Positions 15,383 to 20,259 of a stretch of 64,000 nucleotides of DNA are shown piece by piece. The position numbers were made by a program, and so were the translations under genes. Every line of letters starts with the position of its first letter. Position 1 is the stretch's first letter. Origin of the DNA: Ramlibacter sp. Leaf400 (GTDB lineage Bacteria; Pseudomonadota; Gammaproteobacteria; Burkholderiales; Burkholderiaceae_C); contig NZ_LMQL01000011.1 of the NCBI RefSeq assembly GCF_001424545.1, forward strand, positions 100,593-164,592, in the 5' to 3' direction. The notes beneath the pieces are model-generated. The model had not been told where the DNA came from. It made no database searches and saw nothing but the letters and a program-made list of their open reading frames with translations.

Positions 15383-17062
15383 ATGCCGCTGCCCCCCGCC
15401 CCCACGAAACGCGCCGCCCTGCTCCCGCCCGAGGCCTACGACGCCCCGGCCCGGTCCTCGCACAAGGCTGCTCGAAAATCGGAGGCTGCCGGCGCGGAAA
15501 ACCCGCTGGCTGAACGCCCGCAGGCCGAGGACTTCGACCCGCGCGGCGGTGGCGAGCGCGAGACCGCGCATCCCGTCGCCTTCCAGGACGAAGCCCCCGT
15601 CGCCGAAAGGCCGCAGCAGGCGCGCAAGCGTCCCGCCGCCGAGCCCGCCGGCCGCCGCAAGCCCAAGACGACCGGCCCCACCAAGCTGTTCGTGCTGGAC
15701 ACCAACGTGCTGATGCACGACCCGATGTGCCTGTTCCGCTTCGAGGAACACGACATCTTCCTGCCGATGATCGTGCTGGAGGAGCTGGACGGCCACAAGA
15801 AGGGCACCACCGAGGTCGCCCGGAACGCACGCCAGGCCAGCCGCTCGCTCGATGCCCTCGCGGGCGCGCAGGGCGCGGACATCAGCGCGGGCCTGAAGCT
15901 CGAGTCGACCGGCCACACCGAAGCCGGCGGCAACCTCTTCTTCCAGACCCAGGCGCTGGCCAACCACCTGCCGCCCAGCCTGCCGCAGGGCAAGGCGGAC
16001 AACCAGATCCTGGGCGTGGTGCAGGCGCTGCGCGAGCAGCATTCGCCGCGCGACGTGGTGCTGGTCTCCAAGGACATCAACATGCGGGTCAAGGCCCGCG
16101 CGCTGGGCCTGGCGACCGAGGACTACCGAAACGACAAGACGCTGGACGACCTGGAGCTGATGTACTCCGGCGCGCTGGCGCTGCCGCCGGACTTCTGGGC
16201 CAAGCACGGCAAGACTGTGGAGAGCTGGCAGAGCGGCCAGACCACCTTCTACCGGGTGACCGGGCCGATCGTGCCCAGCCTGATGATCAACCAGTTCGTG
16301 TACTTCGAGGCGCCGGGCGAGCCCAGCCTGTACGCGCGCGTGACCGAGATCCGCGGCAAGACCGCCGTGCTGCGCACACTGAAGGATTACGGGCACCTGA
16401 AGAACGCGGTCTGGGGCGTGACCACGCGCAACCGCGAGCAGAACTTCGCGATGAACCTGCTGATGGACCCCGAGGTCGACTTCGTCACGCTGACCGGCAC
16501 GGCCGGCACCGGCAAGACGCTGATGGCGCTGGCCGCCGGCCTCACGCAGGTGCTGGACGATCGCCGCTACACCGAGATCATCATGACCCGCGCGACCGTG
16601 AGCGTCGGCGAGGACATCGGCTTCCTGCCCGGCACGGAAGAGGAAAAGATGGGCCCCTGGATGGGCGCGCTGGACGACAACCTGGAGGTGCTGGCCAAGA
16701 CCGACACCGGCGCCGGCGAATGGGGCCGCGCGGCCACCAACGAGCTCATCCGCAGCCGCATCAAGATCAAGAGCATGAACTTCATGCGCGGCCGCACCTT
16801 CCTCAACAAGTACGTCATCCTGGACGAGGCGCAGAACCTGACGCCCAAGCAGATGAAGACGCTGATCACGCGGGCAGGCCCGGGCACCAAGATCATCTGC
16901 ATGGGCAACCTGGCGCAGATCGACACGCCCTACCTCACCGAAGGCTCATCGGGCCTCACCTTCGCGGTCGACAAGTTCAAGGGCTGGCCGCACAGCGGCC
17001 ACATCACGCTGGCGCGCGGCGAGCGTTCGCGCCTGGCCGACTTCGCCAGCGAAGTGCTCTGA
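15383..17062 (+). CDS. PIN-PhoH family ATPase/ribonuclease (PhoH2 type)
   Basis: A 559-residue fusion. Residues 1-95 are a low-complexity, proline/alanine/arginine-rich, probably disordered extension. A PIN nuclease domain starts near residue 100 (LFVLDTNVLMHDP, with acidic metal ligands also in EELDGHKKG and KDINMRV). A PhoH ATPase domain follows from about residue 350 with Walker A GTAGTGKT (near 372) and ILDEAQNLTP Walker B. Such proteins are thought to be RNA helicase/ribonucleases related to toxin-antitoxin PIN enzymes. The gene stands alone downstream of an intrinsic terminator. Confidence 0.92.
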   Translation: MPLPPAPTKRAALLPPEAYDAPARSSHKAARKSEAAGAENPLAERPQAEDFDPRGGGERETAHPVAFQDEAPVAERPQQARKRPAAEPAGRRKPKTTGPTKLFVLDTNVLMHDPMCLFRFEEHDIFLPMIVLEELDGHKKGTTEVARNARQASRSLDALAGAQGADISAGLKLESTGHTEAGGNLFFQTQALANHLPPSLPQGKADNQILGVVQALREQHSPRDVVLVSKDINMRVKARALGLATEDYRNDKTLDDLELMYSGALALPPDFWAKHGKTVESWQSGQTTFYRVTGPIVPSLMINQFVYFEAPGEPSLYARVTEIRGKTAVLRTLKDYGHLKNAVWGVTTRNREQNFAMNLLMDPEVDFVTLTGTAGTGKTLMALAAGLTQVLDDRRYTEIIMTRATVSVGEDIGFLPGTEEEKMGPWMGALDDNLEVLAKTDTGAGEWGRAATNELIRSRIKIKSMNFMRGRTFLNKYVILDEAQNLTPKQMKTLITRAGPGTKIICMGNLAQIDTPYLTEGSSGLTFAVDKFKGWPHSGHITLARGERSRLADFASEVL

Positions 17063-17151
17063 TCGTTCCGGCGCACGGCCGCCCAGCGCGGCTGTAGCGT
17101 CCGGTTGCGAAGACGCCCCCAAGCGGGCACACCCGGCTAAGCTTGCCGGCA

Positions 17152-17604
17152 ATGACTCCTTCACTTCCGACCAGACGGTGCCTGGCCGCGGCCCTGGTGG
17201 CCGCTTCGGGCTCCTGCTGGGCCGCCCTGGGCGAGCCCGCGGCGGCGCTCGCGCGCGTGGCCGGCACCACCAGCGTCACGGCGCAGACGCCGGCGGGCGC
17301 GCGCTACACGCAGCTGACGCGCAGACTGGAGTCCGGCACCGAGGTGCGCGAATACGCGGATGCCGCAGGCACGGTGTTCGCGGTGTCGTGGAGCGGTCCC
17401 TTCCTGCCCGACCTGCGCGCGCTGCTGGGGACCCACTTCGCGGCGCTCGAAGAGCATGCGTCCGGCGTGGGCCGTGCTTCGGCCGTCAGCATCCAGCGGC
17501 CGGAGGTCGCCATCCTGTCCGGTGGGCGCATGGGCGCCTTCCAGGGCCGGGCGTGGCTGCCCCGCCAGCTTCCCGCGGGCTTCGACCCCCGCGCCGTGCC
17601 ATGA
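17152..17604 (+). CDS. DUF2844 secreted protein
   Basis: A 150-residue exported protein. MTPSLPTRRCLAAALVAASG is a signal peptide with likely cleavage after SCWA. The mature part matches what I know of DUF2844: ALGEPAAALARV, YTQLTRRLESGTEVREYAD and a central VFAVSWSGPFLPDLRALLG. Function is unknown. Its TGA overlaps the ATG of the DUF3443 lipoprotein gene, so the two are translationally coupled and probably act together in the cell envelope. ATG 17152 is preferred to the TTG at 17143. Confidence 0.85.
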   Translation: MTPSLPTRRCLAAALVAASGSCWAALGEPAAALARVAGTTSVTAQTPAGARYTQLTRRLESGTEVREYADAAGTVFAVSWSGPFLPDLRALLGTHFAALEEHASGVGRASAVSIQRPEVAILSGGRMGAFQGRAWLPRQLPAGFDPRAVP

Positions 17605-18842
17605 ACGCCCGCACTTCTTCCTGGATCGACAAGGCGATGCTGGGCCTGGCGGCCTGCGGGTTCGCCCTGCTCGCCAGCTGCGGCGGCGGCGGGGGCGGCG
17701 ACAACGCGACGGCGATGCGCGGCGCGGGCAGCGGCACCTCCAGCGTGTCCACGCCCTTCGTGCCGGGCGCCAACGTGCTGCAGGTGCTGGTCGACACCGG
17801 CACCGACGGCACCTCGATCAACACGCCCTTCGTGACGGTGCGCGTCTGCCAGCCGGGCACGACCACCTGCGCGGATATCGACCACGTCGTGCTCGACACC
17901 GGTTCTTCGGGCTTGCGCGTCGCGGCGTCGGCCCTGCCCGCCGGTTTCGCCCTCGCTCCCATCACCAACTCCGACGGCAATGCGGTCGGCCAGTGCGCCC
18001 AGTTCGCCAGCGGCTTCTCGTGGGGTTCGGTGCGCGTGGCCGACGTGCGCATGGGCGGCGAGGTCGCGAGCAGCCTGCCGATCCAGGTGGTGAACGATCC
18101 GGCCGCGCCCTACTCGCAGGTGCCGGCGTCCTGCTCGTCCACCGGGCCCAACATCGGTTCGGGCCGCGGCGCCAACGGCATCCTCGGCGTGGGCTTCTTC
18201 AAGGAGGACTGCGGCTCGGCCTGCGACGTCGGCGTGCCGGGTGCGCCCAACTTCTACTACGGCTGCACCGGCGGCGGCGCCTGCACGCCGAGCCGGCTGG
18301 CCCTGGCCAACCAGGTGAGCAACCCGGTGATCTCCTTCGGCGCCAACAACAACGGCGTGGTGGTCGTCATGCCGCCCGTCCCGACCGGAGGCGCCGGCGA
18401 AGCGACCGGCTCGCTGATCCTGGGCGTGGCCACGCAGGCGAACAACCAGCTGGCGGGCGCGACGATCTTCTCCGCGGACGCGCAGGGGTTCTTCACGACC
18501 ACCTACAAGGGCGTCAGTTTCCCCGCCAGCTTCCTGGACAGCGGCTCGAACGGGCTGTTCTTCAACGACGCTGCGCTGCCCTCGTGCGGCGACTTCTACT
18601 GCCCGGGCACGACACCGCTTTCGCTGACCGCCACCAACACGTCGGCCAGCGGCCTGTCCGCCCCGGTCGACTTCTTCATCGACAGCATCACGGCGATCCG
18701 GCCCGGCGCGGCCGCGGCCCACATCGGCGGCACCAACGGCATCCCGGGCAGCTTCGACTACGGGCTGCCGTTCTTCTTCGGGCGGTCGGTGTTCGTCGGC
18801 TACGCCGCGCCCAACGGGCCCGGACCTTTCTGGGCCTACTGA
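17601..18842 (+). CDS. DUF3443 lipoprotein, predicted pepsin-like aspartic peptidase
   Basis: A 413-residue protein with a lipoprotein signal (FALLASC lipobox) and a glycine-rich linker. Two Asp-Thr/Ser-Gly motifs stand 214 residues apart: VLDTGSSGLR (Asp99) and FLDSGSNGLFF (Asp313). After the first comes ANGILGVGFF (residues 191-200), which resembles the DGILGLG segment of pepsins, and near the end FFFGRSVFVGY resembles the pepsin strand after LGD. This is the layout of a bilobal A1 aspartic peptidase. Many cysteines suggest disulfides. The family label is DUF3443; the peptidase call is my inference. It is coupled to DUF2844 and converges on dnaB 7 bp away. Confidence 0.8.
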   Translation: MNARTSSWIDKAMLGLAACGFALLASCGGGGGGDNATAMRGAGSGTSSVSTPFVPGANVLQVLVDTGTDGTSINTPFVTVRVCQPGTTTCADIDHVVLDTGSSGLRVAASALPAGFALAPITNSDGNAVGQCAQFASGFSWGSVRVADVRMGGEVASSLPIQVVNDPAAPYSQVPASCSSTGPNIGSGRGANGILGVGFFKEDCGSACDVGVPGAPNFYYGCTGGGACTPSRLALANQVSNPVISFGANNNGVVVVMPPVPTGGAGEATGSLILGVATQANNQLAGATIFSADAQGFFTTTYKGVSFPASFLDSGSNGLFFNDAALPSCGDFYCPGTTPLSLTATNTSASGLSAPVDFFIDSITAIRPGAAAAHIGGTNGIPGSFDYGLPFFFGRSVFVGYAAPNGPGPFWAY

Positions 18843-18849
18843 GACCCGC

Positions 18850-20259
18850 TCAGAAGTCGCTGCCGCCGCCGTTGGCGAGCGATTCGAACTTGGTCAGGTT
18901 CTTGAGGAAGGCCAGCTTCACCGTGCCGGTGGGGCCGTTACGCTGCTTGCTGATGATGATCTCGGTGACGCCGGGCTCCTTGGAGTCCTTGTTGTAGTAG
19001 TCGTCGCGGTAGATGAACATGATGACGTCGGCGTCCTGCTCGATGGCGCCCGATTCGCGCAGGTCGCTCATCATCGGCCGCTTGTCGGTGCGCGACTCCA
19101 CGCCGCGCGACAGCTGCGACAGCGCGATCACCGGGCAGCCCAGCTCCTTGGCCAGCATCTTCAGGCCACGCGAGATCTCGCCCACCGCCGTGGCCCGGTT
19201 TTCGTCGCTCATGCCCGAGGACACGCTCATCAGCTGCAGGTAGTCGATCACGATCAGGCCGAGCTTGCCGCCGCACTGGCGGGCCAGGCGACGCGCGTTG
19301 GCGCGCAGCTCGCTCACCGTGAGGCCCGGGGTCTCGTCGATGTGCAGCGAGACGTTGCGCAGCTTCTCGATCGCCTCGGTCAGCCGCGGCCACTCGTCGT
19401 CGGTGAGCTTGCCGGTGCGCAGGTGGCCCTGGTCGATGCGGCCGATCGAGCCCACGATACGAACGGCCAGCTGCGAGGCGCCCATTTCCATCGAGAACAC
19501 CGCCACCGGCAGGCCCTCGTTGAGCGCCACGTGCTCCGCGATGTTGATGGCGAAGGCCGTCTTGCCCATGGAGGGCCGCGCCGCAAGCACCACCATGTCG
19601 CCGGCCTGCAGCCCCGACGTCATGCGGTCCAGGTCGTAGAAGCCGGTGGGCACGCCCGTGATGTCGTTCGGGTTGTCCGCCATCTCCTGGACCCGGTCCA
19701 GCAGCTGGACCACCAGGCTGTCCATGCCCTGGAAGCCCTGCTTCATCCGCGAGCCTTCCTCGCCGATGTTGAAGATCTTCTGCTCCGCCTCGTCCAGGAT
19801 CTGGTCGACCGCCTTGCCCTGCGGGCTGAAGGCGGCGGTGGCGATCTCGTCGGAGGCCGACACCAGCTTGCGCAGGATGGAGCGCTCCCGCACGATCTCC
19901 GCGTAGCGCCGGATGTTGCTGGCGCTGGGCACGTACTGCGCCAGCGAGTTCAGGTACGCCAGGCCGCCGATCTCCTCGGCCTTGCCCAGGCTTTGCAGGT
20001 GCTCGTAGACGGTGACCACGTCGGCCGGCCGGCTGGCGTTGATCAGCGCGCCGATGCCCGCGTAGATCAGGCGGTGCTCGTAGCGGTAGAAGTCGGCGTC
20101 GGCGAGCAGGTCGCCCACCCGGTCCCAGGCGCCGTTGTCGATCAGCAGGCCGCCCAGCACGCTGGACTCGGCTTCGATCGAATTGGGCGGCACGCGCAGC
20201 TGCGCGACCTGCCGGTCCCGCGGGAATTCGTCGTTCACGGGCGTCAGGACGGCGGACAT
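18850..20259 (-). CDS. dnaB: Replicative DNA helicase DnaB
   Basis: A 469-residue hexameric helicase that unwinds DNA ahead of the replisome. It has an N-terminal domain (PPNSIEAESSVLGGLL), a linker and a RecA-like C-terminal domain with Walker A ARPSMGKTAFA (Lys233), LIVIDYLQLM (Walker B) and SQLSRGVESR. No intein is present. ATG 20259 (MSAVLTPV) has GGAG 6 bases upstream and is preferred to the ATG at 20292. It is downstream of the rpsF operon on the same strand but separated from it by a strong terminator and two DnaA-box-like motifs. Confidence 0.98.
   Translation of the reverse strand: MSAVLTPVNDEFPRDRQVAQLRVPPNSIEAESSVLGGLLIDNGAWDRVGDLLADADFYRYEHRLIYAGIGALINASRPADVVTVYEHLQSLGKAEEIGGLAYLNSLAQYVPSASNIRRYAEIVRERSILRKLVSASDEIATAAFSPQGKAVDQILDEAEQKIFNIGEEGSRMKQGFQGMDSLVVQLLDRVQEMADNPNDITGVPTGFYDLDRMTSGLQAGDMVVLAARPSMGKTAFAINIAEHVALNEGLPVAVFSMEMGASQLAVRIVGSIGRIDQGHLRTGKLTDDEWPRLTEAIEKLRNVSLHIDETPGLTVSELRANARRLARQCGGKLGLIVIDYLQLMSVSSGMSDENRATAVGEISRGLKMLAKELGCPVIALSQLSRGVESRTDKRPMMSDLRESGAIEQDADVIMFIYRDDYYNKDSKEPGVTEIIISKQRNGPTGTVKLAFLKNLTKFESLANGGGSDF

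Follow-up and report, generated by a model that had tools for sequence, protein, structure and literature searches.

Why would a bacterial lipoprotein with two pepsin-like aspartate motifs be encoded in overlap with a second exported protein? The question is raised by two genes in a 64,000-nucleotide stretch of Ramlibacter sp. Leaf400 (contig NZ_LMQL01000011.1, positions 100,593 to 164,592; hereafter the window, with positions counted from its first letter). The first gene (17152..17604) encodes a DUF2844 protein of 150 amino acids and the second (17601..18842) a DUF3443 protein of 413 amino acids, predicted to be a lipid-anchored aspartic peptidase of pepsin fold; both genes and all features within them lie on the forward strand. 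We consider it probable that the cassette, taken as a whole, provides an exported aspartic endopeptidase together with a cognate helper. The evidence computed directly comprises the fold, the conserved aspartate dyad, the lipobox pattern, and the pairing and co-divergence of the two families.

Predicted fold, active site and membrane anchor of DUF3443

Structure prediction of 17601-18842, proposed as a check in the initial annotation of this DNA, returned a two-lobed pepsin fold across the whole core of DUF3443, as in peptidase family A1 (pepsin, rhizopuspepsin, endothiapepsin, BACE). The model thus makes a pepsin fold almost certain, and the earlier reading of the protein as a bilobal A1-type peptidase is supported for the fold and the active site. 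Translation of the gene also bears out the motifs on which that reading was built. The first catalytic motif, DTGSSG (17895..17912), contains Asp99 and the second, DSGSNG (18537..18554), contains Asp313, 214 residues further on. GILGVG (residues 193-198; 18177..18194) follows the first motif and forms the hydrophobic-hydrophobic-Gly of the N-lobe psi loop (Gly196), and DYGLPFFFGRSVFVG (18756..18800) holds the C-lobe glycine (Gly388) and the next segment, including FFFGRSVFVG (residues 391-400) near the end of the protein.

The initial annotation had staked its interpretation on conservation of the two aspartates in family alignments. In a set of 33 sequences collected by means of the Pfam model, of which the 32 others share 30 to 46% identity with the window protein, Asp99 and Asp313 are invariant (33/33), as are Ser102, Gly196, Gly315 and Gly388. 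The same six positions are invariant in a second set of 63 rows, where Asp99 and Ser102 are biased because the loci were found via a search pattern containing DTGS. In lobe 1 of the 33 sequences Gly196 is always preceded by I/V/L and then L/I/V; in lobe 2 Gly388 is equally constant, yet Asp-Trp often precedes it. One row (L007) has DTA in lobe 1; the other 32 of the 33 retain both D[TS]G triads. Judged from these alignments, conservation of the aspartate dyad is more than chance, and we infer that DUF3443 is likely a working peptidase. Besides Cys27, ten cysteines are conserved in the family. Where Cys204 is missing, in 10 of the 33 rows, Cys208 is missing too, which is what a disulfide would predict, and paired cysteines would fit an oxidising compartment.

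The lipobox described earlier is present in the translation as LASC (17670..17681), ending in Cys27 and followed by GGGGGG, with no Asp at position +2. The pattern occurs in 109 of 113 DUF3443 loci (108 of 112 distinct), as counted by a pattern rule and not by a trained predictor. Of the four loci lacking it, one has masked bases, one starts at a contig edge (L072), one has a frame that opens just before the core (L064) and one has an ordinary-looking signal peptide (L102). The +2 residue over the 109 lipoboxes is Gly in 97, Thr in six, Asn in four, and Ser and Ala in one each, but never Asp; some of the six Thr cases may be cysteines within repeats mistaken for a lipobox. By the rule known from Escherichia coli, absence of Asp at +2 leads to outer-membrane sorting. 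The Gly after Cys27 therefore suggests the outer membrane rather than the inner, where the protein would face either the surface or the periplasm.

The distance between lipobox and first motif is about 72 residues in the window protein and 148 to 377 residues in 21 of the 109, meaning that in these 21 members additional sequence separates the anchor from the core. One such member has a sub-threshold match to a bacterial immunoglobulin (Ig)-like domain. In L006 (439-2601) and in several Duganella and Massilia loci the segment ahead of the pepsin core contains extra repeats or Ig-like stretches, as if to give a longer reach from the membrane. In the window protein, alignment of the predicted core to mature pepsins sets in at model residue 54-59, opposite their start; residues 1-44 have a predicted local distance difference test score (pLDDT) below 50, and the region ahead of the core is a variable linker rich in Gly, Ser, Ala and Pro. 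With a core that starts at the same point as mature pepsin and a disordered, variable stretch in front of it, the protein shows no visible propeptide.

Pairing with DUF2844 and distribution

The ATG of DUF3443 at 17601 overlaps the TGA of DUF2844 at 17602-17604. This ATGA overlap (17601..17604), which direct reading of the sequence confirms, may couple translation of the two genes. DUF3443 (PF11925) is matched at 374.7 bits (E 5.9e-112, residues 57-413; curated cut-off 25) and DUF2844 (PF11005) at 109.1 bits (E 1.9e-31; curated cut-off 22.4), both above their cut-offs, and a Pfam scan up to E 1 found no other family in either protein. By eye, DUF2844 has a signal-peptide-like start, in keeping with its earlier description as secreted, and no lipobox.

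A survey of genomes for the two families, also suggested at the outset, points to a close association. Among 200 genomes of the order, DUF2844 is above cut-off in 18, all of which have DUF3443 (18/18), and 21 of 21 DUF2844 places adjoin DUF3443 (Fisher p about 1e-24, kinship ignored); one of these 21 matches, in G415, has an internal stop. No above-cut-off DUF2844 without DUF3443 was found in the 200, and the sole DUF3443 genome without an above-cut-off DUF2844 (G470) has a weaker DUF2844 directly after DUF3443.

The 126 DUF3443 loci read include 122 distinct ones, the same record having been met twice in L004/L111, L039/L182, L041/L188 and L045/L186; the rows L012, L033, L035 and L037, partial or duplicate, were dropped before counting. 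Partial genes are still present among the 122, namely L036, split in two frames, and L041 and L072, at a contig edge. DUF2844 is found in the same locus in 117 of the 122. The other five are L041 (= L188), which starts at the contig edge, and L002, L092, L184 and L194, which are solo as judged within flanks of about 1.5 kb, or of 4 kb in the case of L092. Each solo genome has a pair elsewhere: the window pair for L002, and L070, L193 and L190 for L092, L184 and L194, respectively. The solo copy L002 (1282-2568, on contig C10 of the window's own genome) has an intact dyad (DTGSSG, DTGTNS) and no DUF2844 in its 1.5 kb flanks; its neighbour is a convergent open reading frame of 191 amino acids with a lipoprotein-like product.

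In all 109 measured pairs the two genes share a strand, with DUF2844 first in 105 and second in four, and intergenic spacing is within about 300 nt in all but two. L031, where DUF2844 was found downstream of DUF3443 with a wider model, is a fifth locus of reversed order, and on account of these five the pairing is not mere frozen order. Distances in the DUF2844 and DUF3443 trees correlate over 108 distinct pairs (r 0.82, partly species history; maximum of 1000 permutations 0.14). Both trees give the same nearest relative for 69% of all 108; in three multi-copy genomes they do so for every copy (9 of 9), showing that paralogous pairs stay matched. Three diverged pairs (L026, L034 and L036) are carried by the 2.8 Mb genome G576, the third of which, with its DUF3443 in two frames, may be broken.

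Across the 200 order genomes DUF3443 exceeds the Pfam cut-off in 19 and has some match in 20; for 398 genomes of the phylum the figures are 10 and 11, and none of 14 control genomes has it. A family-alignment scan of one genome collection gave at least 557 loci confirmed by tblastn. The best 80 of these are mostly from Burkholderiales (Ramlibacter, Duganella, Rugamonas, Collimonas, Paraburkholderia, Trinickia), with a few from Chromobacterium, Gallionella and metagenome-assembled genomes (MAGs) labelled Acidobacteriaceae, and no third gene is conserved across genera among them. The closest among the matches listed is from Ramlibacter, with 53% identity in the best segment. The pairs on MAG contigs labelled Acidobacteriaceae (L091, L097, L104) reflect either cross-phylum transfer or wrong binning. 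Two contigs titled Bordetella parapertussis MAG (L064, L071), whose DUF3443 is about 50% identical to that of the window, look like misnamed environmental bins.

In the window the pair lies between a PhoH-like gene, upstream and in the same orientation, and dnaB, downstream and on the opposite strand. For comparison of this site, 12 same-genus genomes were fetched by their phoH. In eight of them dnaB follows phoH within the locus and no match to either DUF was detected there; the pair is present in one (G638), and the stretch examined from the remaining three shows no dnaB and no pair. In L165, L174, L176 and L178, which lack the pair, phoH and dnaB are direct neighbours, and window positions 17062-18850 represent the filled form of the site. 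Loci fetched by DUF3443 add G642, with the pair at the phoH-dnaB site, and G653, with DUF3443 alone; a congener copy 80% identical to the window's (L190) occupies the same site. As the site is filled in some congeners and empty in others, the DUF2844-DUF3443 unit has been gained or lost there as a block. The G653 site (L184:1226-2565), with DUF3443 between phoH and dnaB, no DUF2844 detected and a full pair elsewhere (L193), indicates that DUF2844 can be missing while DUF3443 stays. No phoH or dnaB was found in the flanks of L002-L117 (L001 being the window itself).

A proposed role for DUF2844 and rival explanations

How might the two proteins work together? The lipoprotein signal would lead to DUF3443 being anchored by Cys27 on a flexible Gly/Ser tether. 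Its two pepsin lobes would each supply one aspartate (Asp99, Asp313) to a common cleft, in which peptides would be cut via activated water. DUF2844, whose gene overlaps that of the enzyme and would be translated right before it, would be exported in parallel and would most likely bind DUF3443 in the periplasm, acting there as an inhibitor or as a chaperone for folding. Eukaryotic pepsins use their propeptide to fold and to stay inactive on the way to their destination, a task that DUF2844 could take over in trans. DUF2844 is a good candidate for such a trans propeptide because it is small and exported, is made immediately before the enzyme, was not seen without it in the 200 genomes and, among paralogues, stays matched to its own enzyme copy.

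Given a pepsin fold and a working peptidase, a role for DUF2844 as chaperone or inhibitor is moderately favoured. No clear counterpart of the predicted DUF2844 domain (beta4-alpha-beta3, pLDDT 88.3, with blocks of about 96) turned up in the PDB, and for this reason the prosegment-like role draws on genetics and not on structure. A more specific version is offered tentatively, as possible but on the whole doubtful: DUF2844 would be a cognate prosegment encoded by a separate gene, folding and silencing the lipid-anchored pepsin until its placement in the envelope, and one DUF2844 could serve extra solo copies in the same genome.

The main rival, which we regard as unlikely, keeps the active pepsin-type peptidase and sees in DUF2844 its dedicated substrate, a matrix or signal protein to be trimmed by the enzyme. 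Tight pairing and co-divergence suit an enzyme and its substrate equally well, and the DUF2844 N-terminus just past the putative signal peptide is conserved (A24, L26 and G27 in at least 90% of rows). However, the invariant positions of DUF2844 (W80, G82, G132) lie within the folded domain, in its best-predicted blocks, unlike an exposed cleavage site, and solo enzyme copies would have no local substrate.

Somewhat less likely again is a non-catalytic pepsin fold, with DUF3443 binding peptides or glycans extracellularly and the aspartates kept for binding or structure. The flap position is Phe in 28/33 and Tyr in 5/33, and Arg stands in 32/33 at the position of pepsin Trp39; by ungapped count we take these positions to be equivalent to pepsin Tyr75 and Trp39. 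Both features would suit a protein of this type, and non-catalytic pepsin-fold proteins are known, e.g. the TAXi inhibitors. Such relatives usually lose one Asp, whereas in DUF3443 both triads are kept in all rows but one at 30 to 46% identity. It is very improbable that the pairing is a by-product of common ancestry and gene order and that the two proteins are unconnected, physically and functionally: one gene order is usual and species history contributes to the correlation, but DUF2844 is not seen above cut-off on its own in the 200 genomes, the order is reversed in five loci, no third gene is common across genera in the best 80 loci, copies inside one genome remain matched and the pair occupies a site that is empty in congeners.

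Comparison with known aspartic peptidases

In the literature searched there was no mention of DUF3443, DUF2844 or PF11925, and no description was found there of a bilobal pepsin fold that is exported and has a partner of its own; a grouping of DUF3443 with aspartic peptidases may already exist in MEROPS or InterPro. If the peptidase-helper explanation is right, a DUF name has concealed a family present in 19 of 200 genomes of one order and at no fewer than 557 loci of one collection, two DUFs gain a testable function together, and new acid-protease candidates become available. The pair also offers a route to ask how a pepsin that has no propeptide attached can pass through export and stay inactive.

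Aspartic peptidases exported by bacteria were already known as such, given PecA and the Rlo peptidases. PecA, a mycobacterial PE_PGRS protein, is reported to be a surface-associated aspartic protease (PMC6819658). It is a type VII secretion substrate, whereas DUF3443 is a predicted lipoprotein. Membership of the PecA family (NF038019, PF20729) was considered and rejected: the window protein has no match, and the L002 paralogue has matches far below the cut-offs (16.7 of 150 bits, E 0.0034, and 13.5 of 33 bits, E 0.044, respectively). Retropepsins have one lobe. RloA of Pseudomonas aeruginosa is reported to belong to secreted retropepsin-like peptidases with signal peptides and is thus exported like DUF3443, but it is retropepsin-like and has RloB and RloC as operon neighbours (PMC12239564).

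Closer in fold are the bacterial pepsin homologues, including shewasins A and D, which are bilobal and from Proteobacteria, like DUF3443. They are described as few: A1 homologues were reported in seven bacterial species, with a predicted signal peptide in none (Rawlings and Bateman 2009, PMC2761423), and shewasin D is active at acid pH, inhibited by pepstatin and mainly cytoplasmic (PMC4814920). In contrast to these homologues, which are reported to lack a signal peptide (PMC2761423, PMC4814920), DUF3443 is a family with export signals and a full predicted pepsin fold. By eye, the C lobe of L139 (DSGTNGIYLN and GLPLMNNYFTVF) resembles that of the window protein (DSGSNGLFFN and GLPFFFGRSVFV).

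The A1 model itself (PF00026) has no match up to E 1 in the window DUF3443 protein (P0001) and none in G000; it is above cut-off in 6 of the 398 phylum genomes, and none of those matches is DUF3443. DUF3443 shares with family A1 (pepsin, rhizopuspepsin, endothiapepsin, BACE) the two-lobed core, the DTG and DSG motifs and the psi-loop glycines in both lobes. It differs from that family in the 214 residues between its aspartates, in having no visible propeptide, in its predicted lipid anchor and in its tightly linked second gene.
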